NCBI GenBank assembly: GCA_005889285.1
Contig: VBFF01000017.1
Coordinates: 1-10,709, forward strand
Reading direction: 5' to 3'
Length of the DNA stretch: 10,709 nt
DNA from: Chloroflexota bacterium
GTDB taxonomy: Bacteria > Chloroflexota > Dormibacteria > CF-121
How positions within the stretch are numbered: the first letter of the stretch is position 1; the number at the start of each line of letters is the position of its first letter. Made by a program: the position numbers and the translations under genes. Positions 1-8,452 of the stretch are shown in pieces. The notes under the pieces were generated by a model. The model was not told the DNA's origin and searched no databases. It saw only the letters and a list, made by a program, of their open reading frames with translations.

Positions 1-849
1 AAGCGCTCGCTGCATGGTCAGCACGGCGCCGTCACCCTCCGCGGGGGCGGCCATGTCGAAGGCGTCGTTGCTCGAGCCGTAGCCGATCACCTCGGCGTAG
101 ATGCGCGCCCCTCGGTGGCGGGCGTGCTCCAACTCCTCGAGCAGGAGGGCTCCGGCGCCCTCCGAGATGACGAAGCCATTGCGCTCCTTGTCGAAGGGGC
201 GGGACGCCTGTGCCGGATCCTCGTGCTGGGCAAGCGCCCGCATCGCGCAGAACCCCGCATAGACGACCGGAACGAGAACCGCCTCGGAGCCACCGGTGAC
301 GATCGCCTCGGCATCGCCGCGGCGGATGGTTTCGAACGCCTCCCCCACAGCCCCGCTGCCGGTGGCGCAGGCGGAGACGACCGCCATATTCGGGCCCCGC
401 AGGCCAAGCGCGATCGCGATATGCCCGGAGGCGGTGTCGGTCAGCATGTTCTGGATGAAGGTCGGGCTGACCCGCTTGAGGCCGCGCTCCTGAAGGATGC
501 GCTGCTGTTCGAGGAAGACCCCAAGCCCGCCTGCCGCACTGCCAAAGATGACGCCCACCTGGTCGAGCAGGCCGTTGCGCGCCATGCCGGCATCGGCGAA
601 GGCCTCCTGCGCGGCGACCAGTCCGAGCTGGGCATAGCGGTCCATCCGCCGGAGCTCCTTGGGCTCGATCCGGCCGGTCGCGTCGAAGCCCTTCACCTCG
701 CCCGCGATCTGCACCGGAAACTCGCTGGCGTCGAAGAGCGTCACCTTCCCGACTCCGGACTGGCCTTCCAGCATGGCGGCCCAGGTGCTGGGCGCATCGA
801 GACCGACAGGCGTCACCGCCCCCACTCCGGTCACGACGACGCGTTTCAT
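1..849 (-). CDS. fabF: 3-oxoacyl-ACP synthase II (KAS II), partial, catalytically intact
   Basis: Elongating condensing enzyme of type II fatty-acid synthesis: it joins malonyl-ACP to an acyl-ACP in the cytosol. The reading frame is open to the left edge, so only the first 283 residues (of about 410 usual) are visible. It opens with the KAS N-terminus (RVVVTGVGAVTPVG). The nucleophile elbow is intact (S-A-C-A-T-G, Cys161), followed by helix and the IRRGDAEA / TGGSEA segment typical of FabF. The catalytic His/Lys/His part lies outside the window. The ATG overlaps the fabD stop as ATGA, so translation is probably coupled to fabD. It is the last visible gene of acpP-fabD-fabF. It is a clear paralogue of the FabF-like gene at 3237-4439 and is a useful reference for what that copy has lost. 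Confidence 0.95.
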   Translation of the reverse strand, partial: MKRVVVTGVGAVTPVGLDAPSTWAAMLEGQSGVGKVTLFDASEFPVQIAGEVKGFDATGRIEPKELRRMDRYAQLGLVAAQEAFADAGMARNGLLDQVGVIFGSAAGGLGVFLEQQRILQERGLKRVSPTFIQNMLTDTASGHIAIALGLRGPNMAVVSACATGSGAVGEAFETIRRGDAEAIVTGGSEAVLVPVVYAGFCAMRALAQHEDPAQASRPFDKERNGFVISEGAGALLLEELEHARHRGARIYAEVIGYGSSNDAFDMAAPAEGDGAVLTMQRAL

Positions 850-1817
850 CCCGACGGCGAAGGGGTGAGGACCCGGGCGACCTCGCGATCGTTCAGGGTG
901 ACGACATGGGCGTCCTGGCTGATGCGCCGGATCAGTCCGGAGAGGACTTGACCGGGTCCGATCTCGAGAAATTCCGCGCTACCACGGGCGAGCATCTCGA
1001 CAACGCTGGCCGTCCACTGGACCGGTTTGAGGATATGGTCGGCCAGCTCCTTGCGGATGTCATCGGCACTCGTCAGGATCGTGCCGGTGATATTGGCGAC
1101 GACAGGAATCCGGGGCTGACGGAGCGGAAGCCGAGCGACGATTTCGCCGAATTGCGCCGCGGCTCGCGCCATCAGCGGCGAATGCGAGGCGATGCTGATC
1201 GGCAGCCGCACGACCCGGGTGGCGCCGCGCGCGCGGGCGAGCTCGGTGGCGCGATCCAGCGCCGGGCCTTCGCCGGAGAGCACGATCTGTCCAGGAGAGT
1301 TCGCGTTGGCCACGGTGATGACGCCAAGCGCGCCGGCTTCGGCGACGACTCCCTCGAGTAGGTCTTTGTCGAGGCCCAGCACCGCGAGCATCCCACCCGG
1401 CCGCAGGGTACCGTTCTCTTTCATCAGCCGTCCGCGTTCGCGGACCAGCACGAGGGCATTCTCGAAGTCGATGACGTCGGCCGCCACCAGCGCGGTGAAC
1501 TCGCCGAGGCTGTGCCCGGCGACGTACTGCGGCGAGATCACCTGCCCCATGGCCTGCCAGCGCTCGCGCAGCGCATTGAGACAGGCGATGCTCACGGTGA
1601 GGATGGCCGGCTGGGCGTTGATCGTGTCGTTGAGATCCTGTTCGGGTCCTTCAAAGCACATGCGCGTCAGCGCGAAGCCAAGGATCTCGTCGGCGCGCTT
1701 AAAGACCTCACGGGCGGTGTCGGAGACGTCGAAGAGCGCTTTGCCCATCCCGACGTATTGCGAACCCTGCCCCGGGAAGACAAAGGCCACCGGGCCTGCC
1801 CCGTAGGGGACGGACAT
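846..1817 (-). CDS. fabD: Malonyl-CoA:ACP transacylase
   Basis: Transfers malonyl from CoA to acyl carrier protein, supplying extender units for fatty-acid synthesis; cytosolic. The protein has 323 residues, normal for FabD. The N-terminal FPGQGSQ motif is at about 14-20, the catalytic Ser103 lies in GHSLGE, and the carboxylate-binding Arg is at about 128 (RERGRLMKE). The catalytic His212 lies in ASHSPLM, and the C-terminal EIGPGQVLSGLIRRI block is present, so the enzyme looks active. The ATG at 1817 places the FPGQGSQ motif at the usual distance. It lies 14 bases after the acpP stop without a convincing Shine-Dalgarno, so coupling to acpP is likely. Its stop overlaps the fabF start by four bases. 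Confidence 0.97.
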   Translation of the reverse strand: MSVPYGAGPVAFVFPGQGSQYVGMGKALFDVSDTAREVFKRADEILGFALTRMCFEGPEQDLNDTINAQPAILTVSIACLNALRERWQAMGQVISPQYVAGHSLGEFTALVAADVIDFENALVLVRERGRLMKENGTLRPGGMLAVLGLDKDLLEGVVAEAGALGVITVANANSPGQIVLSGEGPALDRATELARARGATRVVRLPISIASHSPLMARAAAQFGEIVARLPLRQPRIPVVANITGTILTSADDIRKELADHILKPVQWTASVVEMLARGSAEFLEIGPGQVLSGLIRRISQDAHVVTLNDREVARVLTPSPSG

Positions 1818-1831
1818 CGGGAGGTTGGGCG

Positions 1832-2077
1832 TCAGGCGACGGACACCTTCCCTTTGACGTAATTCCAGGCTTCGCCGACGGTGCGCAGCTTCTGGGCGTC
1901 TTCATCCGAAATCTCCATCCCATATTCCTCCTCGAAGGCCATGATCAGCTCGACCAGGTCCAGCGAGTCGGCCTGCAAGTCATCCGTGAAGGAGGCTTCC
2001 GGGGTCACCTTCTCGACGTCGACGCCAAGCTGCTCCGCGATGATTCCGCGGAACTTGTCGAAATTCGCTTCGGCCAT
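1832..2077 (-). CDS. acpP: Acyl carrier protein
   Basis: Small acidic carrier (81 residues) that holds the growing acyl chain on 4'-phosphopantetheine. The attachment site Ser38 lies in the classic D-S-L-D-L-V-E context, in a four-helix ACP layout with the acidic helix II sequence FEEEYGMEI. It is the first gene of the minus-strand operon acpP-fabD-fabF. Its start has the clearest ribosome binding site in the window: AGGAGG on the minus strand at 2083-2088, five bases before the ATG. This contrasts with the neighbouring genes, which lack one. The strong site fits the high ACP output a cell needs. Confidence 0.97.
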
Positions 2078-2272: not shown

Positions 2273-3235
2273 GTGACCTCGGCCTCGATGCCTTCGCTTG
2301 CCCAGGCACGTCGCGGATTGGCCCTCGGGGCGATCGCCGGCCTGGGGGTATACCGGCCGCCGGCCGATGCCCAACCCGCGCGGCGTGTCACGGGCGCCGA
2401 CCTGACGGGTGTCTCCTACCGGGTGCAATCGGACCAGGGTGTGTCAACCCCGGCATTGGCAGCCGGTGCCGCGCGCGCCGCCCTGGGCGCGGCAGACGTG
2501 CCCACCTCCGACATCGAGATGATCATCGTCGGCACCACCACGCCGGACGTGCTCTGGCCGACGACCGCCTGCCTGGTGCAGACGGAGTTGAAGTTGCCGA
2601 TGGTGGCCAGTTTCGACCTCTACGCGGCTGAGACCAGCGTGCTCTCGGCGCTCAACGTCGGAATCCGCTATGTGGCGGCCGGCGCGCGGGCCCTCCTGCT
2701 GATCGGCGCCGAGTCGGATAACCAGTTGGTCGATCTGCCGGGACAGGGGGGTCGCGTTCACGGCCGCGGAGCAGCCGCCGTGGTGCTGACCTCCGCTGGC
2801 GACGACGGTGGGGTGTTGTCGACGACCGCGGGCGGCGCGGCGCAACCCGACGGCAATGGCGATGCCCAGGATCGAACCCTGTTGCGAGGCCTCACCGAGG
2901 CGGCCGCGGAATGCCTTCAGAAAGCACACCTGGCGATCTCGGAGATCGACCTGGTGATTGGCGAGCAGTCGGCGCCCGAAATCACGCAAGCCTGGAGCCG
3001 GCTCGCCGGCGTGGCATCGAGCCGCATCCTGCTGGATGAGGCGCGCTACGGATCGTTGCTGGCGGCTGCGCCGCTGACGGCGCTCTACGACGCGGTCAAA
3101 AGCGGGCGATTGCAAAAGGGGATGACGGCCCTCGTGCTCTCCTGTGGGAGCGGCCCGACCTGGGCGGCAGCGTGTCTGCGGTGGGGCGGCGGAGGGATCG
3201 CAGAAGCGAGCCCCGGTGCGGAAAGGCGAGCGTGA
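2273..3235 (+). CDS. KAS III (FabH)-like protein lacking the whole catalytic triad
   Basis: Thiolase-fold protein of 320 residues that aligns along its length with FabH, the ketosynthase starting fatty-acid synthesis. Recognisable blocks are IIVGTTTPDVLWP, SFDL-x-A-A near 114-119, GAAAVVL-like near 166-172, and GPTWAAACLRW near 294-304. Every catalytic position is changed. The Cys of the AACSG-type elbow is Glu120 (A-A-E-T-S, codon GAG at 2630-2632). The His of the PHQAN-type motif is Glu231 (I-G-E-Q-S). The Asn of the GNTSAAS-type motif is Ser261 (Y-G-S-L-L). The CoA-binding W-x-x-R-T-G-I block is also absent. The fold therefore seems kept while condensation and decarboxylation chemistry is lost. 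The GTG start follows a -10 directly; ATG 2288 is the alternative. It ends one base before the FabF-like gene. It could be a non-catalytic partner, a divergent thiolase-fold enzyme, or a relic; function is unknown. Confidence 0.8.
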   Translation: MTSASMPSLAQARRGLALGAIAGLGVYRPPADAQPARRVTGADLTGVSYRVQSDQGVSTPALAAGAARAALGAADVPTSDIEMIIVGTTTPDVLWPTTACLVQTELKLPMVASFDLYAAETSVLSALNVGIRYVAAGARALLLIGAESDNQLVDLPGQGGRVHGRGAAAVVLTSAGDDGGVLSTTAGGAAQPDGNGDAQDRTLLRGLTEAAAECLQKAHLAISEIDLVIGEQSAPEITQAWSRLAGVASSRILLDEARYGSLLAAAPLTALYDAVKSGRLQKGMTALVLSCGSGPTWAAACLRWGGGGIAEASPGAERRA

Positions 3236-3236
3236 A

Positions 3237-4439
3237 ATGGTAAACGGCTCGCGGGTTGTCGTCACCGGGACCGGCGCCATCACCTCGCTGGGGCACACCA
3301 CACGCGAAACCTGGGAGGCGGTCAAGGCGGGTCGATCCGGCGTGCGCCGGGTGCAGGCCTTTGATCCGTCCGGGATGCCGAGCCAGGTCGCGAGCGAGGT
3401 CGTGGATTTCAAGCCGGAAGCCCGGCTCGACCGCAAAGAGGCGCGCCGCATGTCGCGATTCGTCCAGTTTGCAATGGTCGCCACTCGCGAGGCCCTCGAG
3501 GGCTCGGGACTCAAGATCACCGAGGCGAACCGGGACCAGGTCGGCGTCATCGTGGGAAGCGCGATCGGTGGCCTGGAGCAGATCGAGGAAGCGCTGACCG
3601 TCCTCAAGGAACGAGGACCCTCGCGCATCAGCCCCTTCACCGTGCCGATGATGATCGCCGACATGGGCGCGGGCATGATTTCGATCGCCCTCGGCGCGCG
3701 AGGGCCGAACTACTGCACGGTTTCCATCCGGCGTGGCGACGCGAAGGCCATGATCGCGGGTGGAAGCGAGGCCTGCGTCACTCCCCTTGCGTTGGCCGCC
3801 TTCTGCGCCTCGCGGGCGGTCTCGACCCGCCAGGTCGAGCCCCAGCTGGCCAGCCGTCCCTTCGACCTGGAACGCGACGGGTTCGTCATGGGGGAGGGGG
3901 CTGGGATCCTGATCCTCGAGCAGCTCGATTCGGCGCGCAAGCGCGGTGCCCCGATCATCGCCGAGATCGTCGGCTACGGAGCGACCGCCGATGCCAGCCA
4001 TATCACGGCGCCTGACCCGGTTGGCGCCGGTGCCGCCCAAGCGATGAAGCGCACCCTGGCCAAGGCGCGGGTCGCGCCGGAGGACGTGAGCTACATCAAC
4101 GCGCACGGGACCGCGACCCAACTGGGTGACGTCGCCGAAACGCTGGCGTTCAAGGACATCTTCGGTGAGGCCGCCTACCGGATCCCGATCAGCTCGACCA
4201 AATCGATGCTGGGCCATCTGCTCGGCGCCGCAGGTTCGGTGGAAGCGGTCATCTCGGTGAAAGCCATCGAGGAGGGCGTTGCTCCACCCACCATCAACCT
4301 CGAGCACCCCGACCCGCAATGTGACCTCGACTACATCCCGGAGGGAGCGCGCGAGCTCGACGTCAAGCTGGCGCTCTCGAACTCGTTCGGCTTCGGCGGC
4401 CACAACGCGTCATTGCTCTTCAAGCAATTCCGAGGCTAA
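3237..4439 (+). CDS. KAS II (FabF)-like protein with the nucleophile elbow deleted
   Basis: FabF-family protein of 400 residues, close to family sequence throughout: RVVVTGTGAITSLG at the start, RGPNYCTVS, MIAGGSEACVTPLA, His290 in NAHGTATQLGD, Lys322 and His327 in STKSMLGHLLGAAG, and SFGFGGHNASLLF at the end. Between Ser163 and Ile164 (bases 3725/3726) about 15 residues are missing, in frame. Family members, including the paralogue at 1-849, have A-C-A-T-G plus the following helix there, so the catalytic Cys is gone. The protein cannot condense by the normal mechanism, and the lost helix is in the fold core. Either it is non-functional, it works structurally, or the reads were mis-assembled. 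The ATG at 3237 is preferred over upstream in-frame codons because it starts the family N-terminus. It follows the FabH-like stop by one base, with AAAGG ten bases upstream. Confidence 0.85.
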   Translation: MVNGSRVVVTGTGAITSLGHTTRETWEAVKAGRSGVRRVQAFDPSGMPSQVASEVVDFKPEARLDRKEARRMSRFVQFAMVATREALEGSGLKITEANRDQVGVIVGSAIGGLEQIEEALTVLKERGPSRISPFTVPMMIADMGAGMISIALGARGPNYCTVSIRRGDAKAMIAGGSEACVTPLALAAFCASRAVSTRQVEPQLASRPFDLERDGFVMGEGAGILILEQLDSARKRGAPIIAEIVGYGATADASHITAPDPVGAGAAQAMKRTLAKARVAPEDVSYINAHGTATQLGDVAETLAFKDIFGEAAYRIPISSTKSMLGHLLGAAGSVEAVISVKAIEEGVAPPTINLEHPDPQCDLDYIPEGARELDVKLALSNSFGFGGHNASLLFKQFRG

Positions 4440-4443
4440 CCGT

Positions 4444-5697
4444 TTGATCTTCCTCAGCGATTTCCTCAACGCTGAGGTGGTCGACGTTCGACAGCATCGC
4501 GTCGGGCGAGTTCGCGACCTGGTGGTGGTGATGACCGAGCCCTTCCCCAGGGTCACCGGCGTCATCCTGAAGGGCAATCGCAAGGTGCGCTCACTCGATT
4601 GGTCGGTGGTCCGCAGCTGGGACAACAAGGAGCTCAGCCTGAAGGTGGACGCCGGCAGCTTACAGCCGCACAGCCGTGCCGATACCGAGCTGTGGCTGGC
4701 ACGGCAGATCCTCGACAAGCAGATCGTCGACATGGACGGCCGCCGGGTGGTGCGAGTCAACGACCTGCAGCTTTCCCAGGTCGAAGGCTCGATGCTCGTC
4801 ATCGGCGTCGATATCGGCAGTCGTGGGCTGGCGCGCCGGGTCGGGATCGAGGGGCTGGGCCGGCGCGTCACGGCGGCACTCGGGCTGGACTGGCCGCAAA
4901 AGCTCATCTCCTGGGAGGCCGTCGACCCCGTGAAGACCGACGTCAGCTCGGTCAAGCTGCGGATCGCCCACACCAAGCTCGCCAAGCTCCATCCGGCCGA
5001 CATCGCCGACATCGTCAATGAGCTCAGCCCCGACGACCGGAGTGCCGTCTTCGCCGCCCTCGATGACGAGAAAGCCGCGGATACGTTGGAAGAGATCGAT
5101 GAGCCGCAGATGCAGGCCTCTATCCTCGAGCGGCTCGATGTCGAGCGCGCCTCGGACATCCTGGAGGCGATGGCCCCCGACGAGGTGGCGGACCTGCTCG
5201 CCGACATGCCGCGCGAGCGGGCGCAACAACTGCTGCAGAAGATGGAGGAGGACGAGGCGGGCGACGTCGAGGAATTACTCGCCTACCGTGAGGACACGGC
5301 TGGTGGCCTGATGACCACCGAGTACGTCGCCGTCCTGCATACCCTCACCGCCGCCGAGGCGATCGAACGGTTGCGCGAGCTCGAACCCGATGCCGAAAGC
5401 GTCTACTACGTCTATGTCACCGATGAGGAGGAGCACCTGCTGGGGGTCCTCTCCCTGCGCGACCTGATCGTGGCCAAGCCCGAAACGAAGATCCGTGACT
5501 TCATGATCAAGAACGTGATTTCCGTGCGCCTCGACGCGGGGCCGCGCGAGGTTGCCGAGGTCACCTCGAAGTACAACCTGCTGGCGGTCCCGGTGGTCGA
5601 CGAGCACAATCGGATTCACGGCATCGTCACCGTCGATGACGTCATGGAGCGGGTCATGCCGGCGCGGGCCGGCGGGCGCCGCCGCCGCATCTTCTAA
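4444..5697 (+). CDS. Soluble MgtE-like sensor: PRC barrels, MgtE N domain and CBS pair, no membrane domain
   Basis: Predicted cytosolic protein of 417 residues. Two PRC-barrel-like segments (about 1-60 and 84-165) are followed by an MgtE-type superhelical N domain (about 175-278, repeats such as HPADIADIVNEL and MAPDEVADLLADMP). The linker TAGGLMTTEYV and two CBS domains (about 288-345 and 350-405) come next, then an arginine-rich tail. True MgtE channels continue into five membrane helices, and none exist here. In MgtE the N and CBS domains sense Mg2+ and nucleotides. Here they probably regulate the Nramp-family transporter encoded five bases downstream. The start is TTG at 4444, eight bases after GAGG within the end of the FabF-like gene. 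The first in-frame ATG (4531) would cut the first PRC barrel. Function is inferred from domains and neighbour. Confidence 0.85.
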   Translation: MIFLSDFLNAEVVDVRQHRVGRVRDLVVVMTEPFPRVTGVILKGNRKVRSLDWSVVRSWDNKELSLKVDAGSLQPHSRADTELWLARQILDKQIVDMDGRRVVRVNDLQLSQVEGSMLVIGVDIGSRGLARRVGIEGLGRRVTAALGLDWPQKLISWEAVDPVKTDVSSVKLRIAHTKLAKLHPADIADIVNELSPDDRSAVFAALDDEKAADTLEEIDEPQMQASILERLDVERASDILEAMAPDEVADLLADMPRERAQQLLQKMEEDEAGDVEELLAYREDTAGGLMTTEYVAVLHTLTAAEAIERLRELEPDAESVYYVYVTDEEEHLLGVLSLRDLIVAKPETKIRDFMIKNVISVRLDAGPREVAEVTSKYNLLAVPVVDEHNRIHGIVTVDDVMERVMPARAGGRRRRIF

Positions 5698-5702
5698 CCG
5701 TT

Positions 5703-7010
5703 TTGGGCCCGCCGAGCGCGCTGGCCCGGCCGTTCGGTCTCCTCCGCAGCCGGCGCACGCGGCTCGTGATGTTGCTGGCGGTGGTCGGCCCCGGCATCAT
5801 CACCGGCAACGTCGACAACGACGCGACCGGGATTACTGGGTACGCGCTGGCCGGCTCGCAGTTCGGCTACGAGCTGCTGTGGTTGCTGATCGTCACCGCC
5901 ATCTGCCTGGTCGCGATCCAGTCGATGGTGGCCCGCATGGGCACCGTCACCGGGAAGGGGTTGTCGGACCTGATTCGCGAACGCTTCGGCATTGCCCCGA
6001 CGCTCTGGGTGATGATCTTCCTCTTCTTCGCCAACGCGGCCACGACCGTCGCGGAATTCGCCGGCGTCGGTGGGGCGGCCCAACTCTTGTTCGGCAACAT
6101 CGCTCGCTACGCCGCGATCCCGGTGGCCGCCCTGCTGGTCTGGTTTCTGGTTCTGCGGGGGTCGTTTCGCGTCGTCGAGCGCGTCCTTCTGCTCCTCACC
6201 CTGGTCTACCTCGGCTATATCGTTTCGGCGTTCCTTGCCCACCCGAAGTGGAGCGATGTCATCCACCACACCGTGGTTCCGACGTTCCACCTCACGCCGC
6301 CATTCATCCTCATCTTCATCACGATCATCGGCACGACGATCACGCCATGGATGGCGTTTTTTCAGCAGTCCAACGTCGCCGACAAGGGACTGCATCCCGA
6401 CGACCTGAAGTACGAGCGGGTCGACACAGTCGCCGGCATCCTGATGCTGAACGTCGTGGCCTTTTTCATCATCGTCGCCACGGGAGCCACGATCTACGCA
6501 GCCCATGTCACCGTGAACCCGTCAGACCCCTCGGCGTTCTCCAAGATTGCCCTGGCGCTCAAGCCCCTGGCGGGCCAGTATGCGGAACAGCTCTTTGCGA
6601 TTGGGCTCCTGAACGCCTCGCTGATGGCCGCGTCGGTGCTGCCCCTCTCCACCACCTACGCGATCACCGAGGCCTTTGGTCTCGAACGCGGCATCGACAA
6701 GTCCTTCCGCGAGGCGCCGGCGTTCCTCACGATTTACACGGCCACGATCGTCATTGGTGCGGGCATCGCCATGTTCCCGGGCGCTCCCCTGGTCTTGATC
6801 ACCAACCTCCCGAACATCATCAACGGGATGCTCCTGCCCCTCCTCCTGCCGCTGCTGATCCTGCTGGCCAACGACAAGCGGATCATGGGCCGCTACGCGA
6901 ACTCGCCGCTCTTCAACGTCTTCTCGGGCGTTGTCATGGTGTTCCTAACGGCGGTGACGCTGGCCTTCCTCGCCTCGATCTTCTTTCCCGGATTGTTCGG
7001 CGGCCGCTAG
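5703..7010 (+). CDS. Nramp-family metal transporter, non-canonical metal site
   Basis: Inner-membrane LeuT-fold transporter of 435 residues with about eleven hydrophobic helices, the usual Nramp size. TM1 contains GPGIITGNVDNDATG (30-43), then FGYELLW and the conserved TGKGLSDLIRERFG loop (83-96). The canonical TM1 DPGN reads D38-N-D-A, and the TM6 Met-Pro-His reads Thr214-Pro-Trp, within I-G-T-T-I-T-P-W. Three usual ligand positions are thus changed, as in divergent Nramp branches, so the substrate may not be Mn2+/Fe2+. Mg2+ is a possibility given the MgtE-like protein encoded just upstream, but this is inference. The start is TTG at 5703, with no clear ribosome site. GTG 5766 or ATG 5769 would begin right at TM1 and drop the arginine-rich N-terminal tail. 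The 3' end overlaps the macro-domain gene antisense. Confidence 0.88.
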   Translation: MGPPSALARPFGLLRSRRTRLVMLLAVVGPGIITGNVDNDATGITGYALAGSQFGYELLWLLIVTAICLVAIQSMVARMGTVTGKGLSDLIRERFGIAPTLWVMIFLFFANAATTVAEFAGVGGAAQLLFGNIARYAAIPVAALLVWFLVLRGSFRVVERVLLLLTLVYLGYIVSAFLAHPKWSDVIHHTVVPTFHLTPPFILIFITIIGTTITPWMAFFQQSNVADKGLHPDDLKYERVDTVAGILMLNVVAFFIIVATGATIYAAHVTVNPSDPSAFSKIALALKPLAGQYAEQLFAIGLLNASLMAASVLPLSTTYAITEAFGLERGIDKSFREAPAFLTIYTATIVIGAGIAMFPGAPLVLITNLPNIINGMLLPLLLPLLILLANDKRIMGRYANSPLFNVFSGVVMVFLTAVTLAFLASIFFPGLFGGR

Positions 7011-7529
7011 CTGGCGGTCGGCTTCATCGCGGAACGCGGCTTCGGCACCATCGCCGAAGAGTACAAACCGAACCTGGCGGATACTGGTTGGGTTGCGGCT
7101 ATGAGCCAGGACTTCCTCGATCATGATGCGAGCGCACTCCTCGAGCGGAAAGCGAGCGATGCCGGTACCCACGGCCGGAAACGCGATCGACCGCAGCCCG
7201 CGCAGGTCGGCGATCTCAAGGCTGCGGCGAGTGGAGCGGCGCAGGCCGTCCGCCCCGGTCCGGCCTCCCAACCGCATGCTCGCGGCATGGATGACGAAGC
7301 GCGCCGTTAACTTGCCCCCGTCCGTGATGGCGGCATCACCGACCTCGATGGGGCCGATCGCGTCGCACTCGGCCTGGATCTGCGGCCCGCCGGCGCGCGC
7401 GATCGCACCGGCGACACCGCCTCCTAACTCCAGGTCGTTATTCGCCGCGTTGACGATGGCGTCGACATCCTGCTCGGTCAGGTCACCCTGCAAGACCTCG
7501 ACCGCGAGGCTCCCGGCACGCCAGCTCAC
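6945..7529 (-). CDS. Macro-domain protein (ADP-ribose binding, possible hydrolase)
   Basis: A 194-residue protein made almost wholly of one macro domain, which binds ADP-ribose and in many members removes it from proteins or from O-acetyl-ADP-ribose. Visible motifs are LQGDLTEQDVDAIVNAAN (13-30, with Asp16 for adenine), the phosphate loop LGGGVAGAI (35-43), and IAFPAVGTGIARFP (115-128). It looks like the Af1521-type branch rather than MacroD, since Ala replaces the His after G-A-I. The chosen start is the GTG at 7529, which overlaps the pfkB stop as GTGA. The longer frame upstream lies within pfkB. The last 15 or so residues are charged, and their codons are the antisense of the end of the Nramp gene. 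Co-translated with the kinase. Confidence 0.9.
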   Translation of the reverse strand: MSWRAGSLAVEVLQGDLTEQDVDAIVNAANNDLELGGGVAGAIARAGGPQIQAECDAIGPIEVGDAAITDGGKLTARFVIHAASMRLGGRTGADGLRRSTRRSLEIADLRGLRSIAFPAVGTGIARFPLEECARIMIEEVLAHSRNPTSIRQVRFVLFGDGAEAAFRDEADRQLAAAEQSGKEDRGEEGQRHRR

Positions 7530-8452
7530 GTCATCGAGGGGAGCCAGGCCATCGACGCCATCCGGGACTCGACGTCCTCGCGGGTGATGGGCTGCAGCCC
7601 GCGCACACTGAAGTGCTGGATGGTGAAGGAGGCCATCACCATGGCGTACCCGAGGGCCAGGCGCACCGAGTCGTCCGTCTCCACCTGCTGCTCGGCCAGG
7701 CATCCCAGGAACCCGGCCGCCACCGCATCGCCCGCGCCCGTGGGGTCGATCGGCGGATCGACCGGCAAGGCAGGAAGGTGGATGTCGTCACCGTGGCGGT
7801 AGAGCGTTGCGCCTTTCGGGCCCTCCTTGATCACGAGCCCGCGCAAGGTGAAGCGGTGGCGCAATTGCTCTGAGGCTTCCTCGATGGTTCCGACCTTTGC
7901 CAGCGCCATCGCCTCGGAGGCGTTGAGGAAGAGATAGTCGAGCCGCTGAAGTACCGGTTCTAGAGCCTCGGGCTGCTCCCGAATGTAGAGCTTCATCGTG
8001 TCACCGGCGACCAGCCACGGATCGTCGAGCTGCTCGAGCACGCGCATCTGGTGACGGGGCTCCATGCTGCCGAGGAAAACGATGCGGGACTTGCGCTGAT
8101 CGGCGGTCAGGACCGGTGAAAAGCCACGGTACGCGCCCTGGTCCGAGCGCTCGTTGCGGGTGGTGCCGGTCTCGTAGTCGTGCTCGGCGAACCAGCGGTA
8201 GGTGGGGAGCTCGGAAGTCACCGTGCTTCGCAGGTCGGCGCCGGTTCCTTTCATCGCGGCTTGAAAGGCGTGCATGAAGTCCGGGCCAGCGGTGCCGACG
8301 ACCGATACGGGCGCAAAGAGCCGCGCCGCCAGCGTGAAGTAGGTGGCTGATCCACCGAGTCCGTCCGTGTTGACGCCCATCGGCGTGCGAACGTCGTCGC
8401 GGGTGATGGTGCCGGCGACCAGCAACGGCCACGGCTGGTGAGGGGGCGTCAC
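7526..8452 (-). CDS. PfkB/ribokinase-family kinase
   Basis: Cytosolic sugar or nucleoside kinase of 308 residues. It has the N-terminal substrate-lid motif GLGGSATYFTLAA (31-43), VSVVGTAGPDF (49-59), the Asn-Ala-Ser-Glu block LFLNASEAMAL (175-185), and VIKEGPKGATLY (207-218). The ATP/anion-hole signature DPTGAGDAVAAGF (236-248) carries catalytic Asp242. The G-G-S-A-T-Y-F form of the first motif marks a conserved but biochemically vague subgroup, so the substrate cannot be read off. Ribose or a nucleoside is plausible beside a macro-domain and a Nudix gene. The start is GTG at 8452 with a TAGAAT hexamer nine bases upstream and no clear ribosome site. The stop overlaps the macro-domain start. 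Confidence 0.9.
   Translation of the reverse strand: MTPPHQPWPLLVAGTITRDDVRTPMGVNTDGLGGSATYFTLAARLFAPVSVVGTAGPDFMHAFQAAMKGTGADLRSTVTSELPTYRWFAEHDYETGTTRNERSDQGAYRGFSPVLTADQRKSRIVFLGSMEPRHQMRVLEQLDDPWLVAGDTMKLYIREQPEALEPVLQRLDYLFLNASEAMALAKVGTIEEASEQLRHRFTLRGLVIKEGPKGATLYRHGDDIHLPALPVDPPIDPTGAGDAVAAGFLGCLAEQQVETDDSVRLALGYAMVMASFTIQHFSVRGLQPITREDVESRMASMAWLPSMT

Follow-up and report, generated by a model that had tools for sequence, protein, structure and literature searches.

A FabF (KAS II) gene, F2, lacks its catalytic Cys in the window analysed here, a stretch of 10,709 nucleotides that constitutes contig C155 (VBFF01000017.1) of the draft genome G000 (1.73 Mb, 193 contigs, 82% complete) of an uncultured soil Chloroflexota bacterium, and we consider it highly probable that the 45-bp gap responsible for this loss is a local assembly error. 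An assembly error is favoured because the gap is private to one genome, because the comparable deletions at this locus in related draft genomes mostly break the reading frame, and because similar lesions are present in the aspartokinase and threonine synthase genes of the same genome. Two stretches of one FabF gene would have been joined over 45 bp that the assembler left unresolved, and such a misjoin would have removed the segment from the contig, the segment itself presumably existing in the DNA of the cell. Most likely, the organism carries an ordinary FabF with a Cys-His-His-Lys active site, which would elongate acyl-ACP chains through decarboxylative condensation. In enzymes of the KAS II type, acyl-ACP hands its acyl chain to the Cys, and the two His and the Lys help decarboxylate malonyl-ACP, after which condensation follows. 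The features of the locus are listed in Table 1.

Table 1. Features of the FabF locus, with positions counted from the first nucleotide of the window.
Feature	Position	Strand	Evidence
F1, second FabF, truncated at the contig end, with the Cys elbow intact	1..849	-	Paralogue comparison
FabD-like acyltransferase	846..1817	-	PF00698
Acyl carrier protein	1832..2077	-	PF00550
FabH-like (KAS III-like) gene, directly upstream of F2	2273..3235	+	Pfam domains, structure alignment
F2, FabF (KAS II) gene with the gap	3237..4439	+	TIGR03150 score, orthologue alignment
Join in F2, where 45 bp of the relatives are absent	3725..3726	+	DNA alignment with relatives

As assembled, F2 has an open frame of 400 amino acids, compared with about 415 in its orthologues. 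Judged by its sequence, F2 is a true relative of FabF with chance likeness excluded, since its score against the NCBIfam fabF model TIGR03150, which it matches over the whole length, is 553.9 bits and exceeds the cut-off of 493.75; the best sequence match among solved structures is 1e5m. The two catalytic His and the Lys are in place (His290, His327 and Lys322, all invariant in an alignment of 35 sequences), and the catalytic Cys of the nucleophile elbow is absent. The original prediction had read the protein as running from CTVS directly into IRRGDA, in an open frame with the rest of the gene conserved, and had counted 15 residues between the same anchors in the intact paralogue. Both statements were confirmed: the protein reads RGPNYCTVS and then IRRGDA, with the join falling between codons, and F1 has the 15 residues, reading VSACATGSGAVGEAFETIRRGDA. 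Same-genus orthologues of F2 read CTVSACSSGAHAIGEAFETIRRGDA or nearly so and, unlike F2 as assembled, do not lack the Cys and the 14 residues beside it. DNA alignment with 13 orthologous loci gives a single clean 45-bp gap, and the join is blunt, in frame and free of Ns.

Chain-length factors and KSQ domains have the ketosynthase fold with the Cys replaced and the elbow kept. F2 resembles them in having no catalytic Cys, but differs in that the entire 15-residue segment is gone rather than the Cys being swapped within a kept elbow.

The original prediction had named in advance what would speak against an unusual protein, namely a close relative in which this locus retains the segment, and the segment is present in every one of the 15 further family genomes with sequence at the site. 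These 15 are the 13 aligned orthologous loci together with G001 and G013; among the family genomes not covering the site, the contig stops before it in G012 and only a paralogue was found in G006. The gap is thus private to one assembly while the segment is kept in close relatives, as is expected of an assembly error. When 5.8 billion proteins were searched, F2 with the gap formed a cluster with one member, and the best intact match (P0003, 415 amino acids) represents 388 sequences. Most of the named close protein matches are from Candidatus Dormibacteraeota; the names Chloroflexi and Candidatus Limnocylindrales occur as well. The Cys is kept in 119 of the best 120 of 7891 homologues. An internal gap is found in 11 of the same best 120, and seven database homologues besides F2 have clean private gaps elsewhere in the protein, where a gap was called clean if at least 23 of 30 flanking residues were identical on both sides; P0106, P0111 and P0120, whose gaps were ragged or terminal, were dropped.

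These comparisons bear directly on the idea that F2 is a real elbow-less FabF, kept for a non-condensing role such as that of a structural or length-setting partner resembling a chain-length factor. The open frame and the presence of the other catalytic residues would suit such a role, as would the adjoining KAS III-like protein, which itself has no catalytic residues. However, the elbow-less form is shared by no other family genome covering the site and by none of the best 120 of 7891 homologues, the orthologues retain the Cys elbow, and the AlphaFold2 model of F2 is poor (mean pLDDT 52.2, with residues 156-227 below 50), a weak argument because only the gapped form of F2 was modelled. We therefore regard this explanation as extremely improbable. 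The unusual FabF with an excised elbow that headed the original prediction is not supported as a biological feature. A functional elbow-less ketosynthase was set aside, as no relative covering the site shares the gap.

Blunt deletions are not limited to F2 of the window. In a survey of seven genes of the locus in 18 genomes, with 15 to 18 copies per gene and 119,690 aligned bases (a total that includes the G006 paralogue taken for F2 and a stretch of N in the G007 copy of F1), we found nine deletions without Ns, 29-136 bp long, each in one genome only and affecting six genomes. Four are in F2 (45 bp in G000, 35 bp in G001, 98 bp in G004 and 113 bp in G013), two in the MgtE-like gene (77 bp in G004 and 29 bp in G009), and one each in FabD (136 bp in G013), the Nramp gene (85 bp in G004) and the FabH-like gene (93 bp in G016); the N stretch in G007 F1 makes a tenth gap. 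Two of the nine are in frame and seven break the frame, where about three in frame would be expected without selection on the frame, a number of events too small for testing. When a close relative is available for comparison, the breakpoints are ambiguous by 0-2 bp; those of both G013 gaps and of the gap in G016 are less sharp, their nearest relative being distant. Only gaps of at least 29 bp were counted; a 12-bp gap in G016 and gaps or insertions of 3-9 bp lie below this threshold and were taken as natural variation. Seven of the 13 relatives at named loci have no gap of at least 29 bp at the locus, which counts against an assembly error. The private deletions of 29-136 bp in G001, G004, G013, G009 and G016 lie at L080, L082, L087, L034 and L038.

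Lesions of the same kind are found elsewhere in the genome of the window. On contig C193 (L131), 66 bp are missing from the threonine synthase gene and 41 bp from the aspartokinase gene, at about 605 and 2337; the aspartokinase cut puts the two parts of that gene out of frame with each other. Aspartokinase is uninterrupted over the cut site in 13 of the 14 other same-genus genomes and was not found in the last, G004; threonine synthase spans its cut site in 11 of the 14, with G004, G006 and G014 not covering it. For the comparison, 343 kb of G000 was set against 1.06 Mb of G003, a relative with a better assembly, using 39 of 43 and 57 of 61 pieces, respectively, after dropping four from each that were mostly N, and 91,489 bases of G000 were aligned. 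Gaps of at least 15 bp numbered 16 on the G000 side and three on the G003 side. Read by eye, the G000-side gaps include three that cut bluntly into conserved genes (45, 66 and 41 bp), another three in one long open reading frame (15, 24 and 39 bp), which are all multiples of three and may be natural, and ten in ragged or seemingly intergenic alignment. Those on the G003 side are two of 127 and 67 bp in seemingly intergenic sequence and one of 17 bp where the FabH-like gene ends. The 39 usable G000 pieces contain ten short stretches of N (6-127 bases) and the 57 usable G003 pieces contain none; we took these stretches as scaffold gaps, N being able to mark masked stretches as well.

Alternatively, the sampled strain may have undergone a true and very recent deletion that left F2 dead as a condensing enzyme, with other FabF genes covering for it. 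The clean, in-frame join would agree with this, and other FabF genes do exist: G000 has partial matches in F1 and at C170:2-211, and G003 has three that are full-length. Against it, such a deletion must have arisen independently and yet resemble both the aspartokinase and threonine synthase cuts and the private cuts of related genomes, and we judge it unlikely, with a small share of the probability. Selection on the gene fits either account. The dN/dS values between F2 of the window and that of seven relatives are 0.024-0.058, those for pairs among the relatives are 0.026-0.061, and one F2 residue is private to the window in this comparison. The rest of F2 is therefore under strong purifying selection like its orthologues, with no sign of relaxation, which is equally compatible with an assembly error and with a very young deletion. 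The original prediction had offered three explanations side by side; among these, the assembly error is now strongly favoured, the recent private deletion stays as the lesser possibility, and the protein kept for a non-condensing role is disfavoured.

As to how an assembly error could have arisen, the site itself gives little help, and it counts against this explanation that the 45-bp site has no repeat or clear hairpin able to explain a failed assembly, as it does that the join happens to be blunt, in frame and free of Ns. Collapse over a direct repeat was rejected, because alignment to the nearest relative places the best breakpoint with zero ambiguity. A GC-rich hairpin was examined as a cause, and the hairpin stability of the segment with its flanks ranks 19, 36 and 145 of 226 in three relatives. 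Chen et al. (2020; PMC7111523) describe local assembly errors as suspected to be prominent in IDBA-UD assemblies and as putting incorrect protein-coding genes into databases. The F2 gap resembles their errors in being wrong local sequence, but their diagnostic is read support, whereas the gap is known from assembled sequence. The samples of a grassland-soil study (PMC6784897) were assembled with IDBA-UD, and the sample-style names of 13 related loci resemble a sample name in that study; we infer that the window genome may come from the same grassland-soil data and may have been assembled with IDBA-UD.

In the gene neighbourhood, the acyl carrier protein, FabD and F1 genes are oriented opposite to the FabH-like gene and F2, and downstream of F2 lie a PRC/MgtE_N/CBS protein and then an Nramp transporter. 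Matches to the locus genes are found together in the seven relatives examined (G003, G009, G010, G011, G015, G016 and G017), with no Nramp match seen in the G017 stretch. The PRC, MgtE_N and CBS protein (4444-7010, plus strand) lies directly before Nramp, the Pfam scan reports no membrane domain in it, and both genes occur side by side in six of the seven relatives examined. On the minus strand at 6945-8452, overlapping open reading frames resemble, by eye only, a macro-domain protein and a PfkB-type sugar kinase.

The FabH-like protein encoded directly upstream of F2 deserves separate description. It lacks the Cys-His-Asn triad of FabH (KAS III), having Glu120 in place of Cys, Glu231 in place of His and Ser261 in place of Asn. 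PF08541 and PF08545 are above their cut-offs and the protein is alignable to FabH structures, with TIGR00747 (fabH) reaching 122.4 bits, below the cut-off of 292.1. Its AlphaFold2 model (mean pLDDT 73.4, pTM 0.79) is better than that of the gapped F2. In this protein together with the best 120 of its 359 homologues, a set that favours close relatives, the Cys position is Glu in 120 of 121 sequences and Gln in one, and the Asn position is Ser in 88, Thr in 14, Asn in 11, Ala in six and Asp in two; the His position is Glu in 119 of 120 sequences. Among 42 loci found in a GTDB-based collection, 13 Chloroflexi loci are altered: Cys is replaced by Glu in 12 and by Gln in one, and His by Glu in 12 and by Asp in one. 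The remaining 29 retain Cys. The Glu-bearing protein is confined to one Chloroflexi lineage. Since its dN/dS is 0.10-0.15 in four pairs, the gene is maintained, less tightly than F2. A canonical FabH with Cys, His and Asn is encoded elsewhere in G000, on contig C109, and therefore the altered protein is not the sole KAS III.

A wider reading, which we put forward tentatively as possible rather than probable, combines an artefactual gap in F2 with a real lineage-specific KAS III relative that has Glu for both Cys and His; this conserved protein might act as a non-condensing partner of FabF2 or as a malonyl-ACP decarboxylase supplying starters, both its function and its partner being putative. 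PqsB of PqsBC is a FabH-type subunit in which all three catalytic residues are missing (PMC4807248). The window protein is alike in being FabH-type with the triad missing, and different in that Glu is conserved where Cys and His would stand and in lying in a fatty-acid gene cluster, with a partner that is only putative. For a KAS III with Glu in place of Cys, our searches of an open-licence library found nothing on point.

An elbow-less FabF as an enzyme very probably does not stand. Caution is called for when a draft metagenome genome has a private loss of a catalytic segment that leaves the frame open, as such losses mimic new enzyme variants; this is because a gene caller shows in-frame cuts as whole proteins and frame-breaking cuts as fragments. 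Comparison with close relatives, together with a count of frame-breaking twin lesions, goes far to settle such cases without reads. The FabH-like neighbour merits more attention than the gap in F2.
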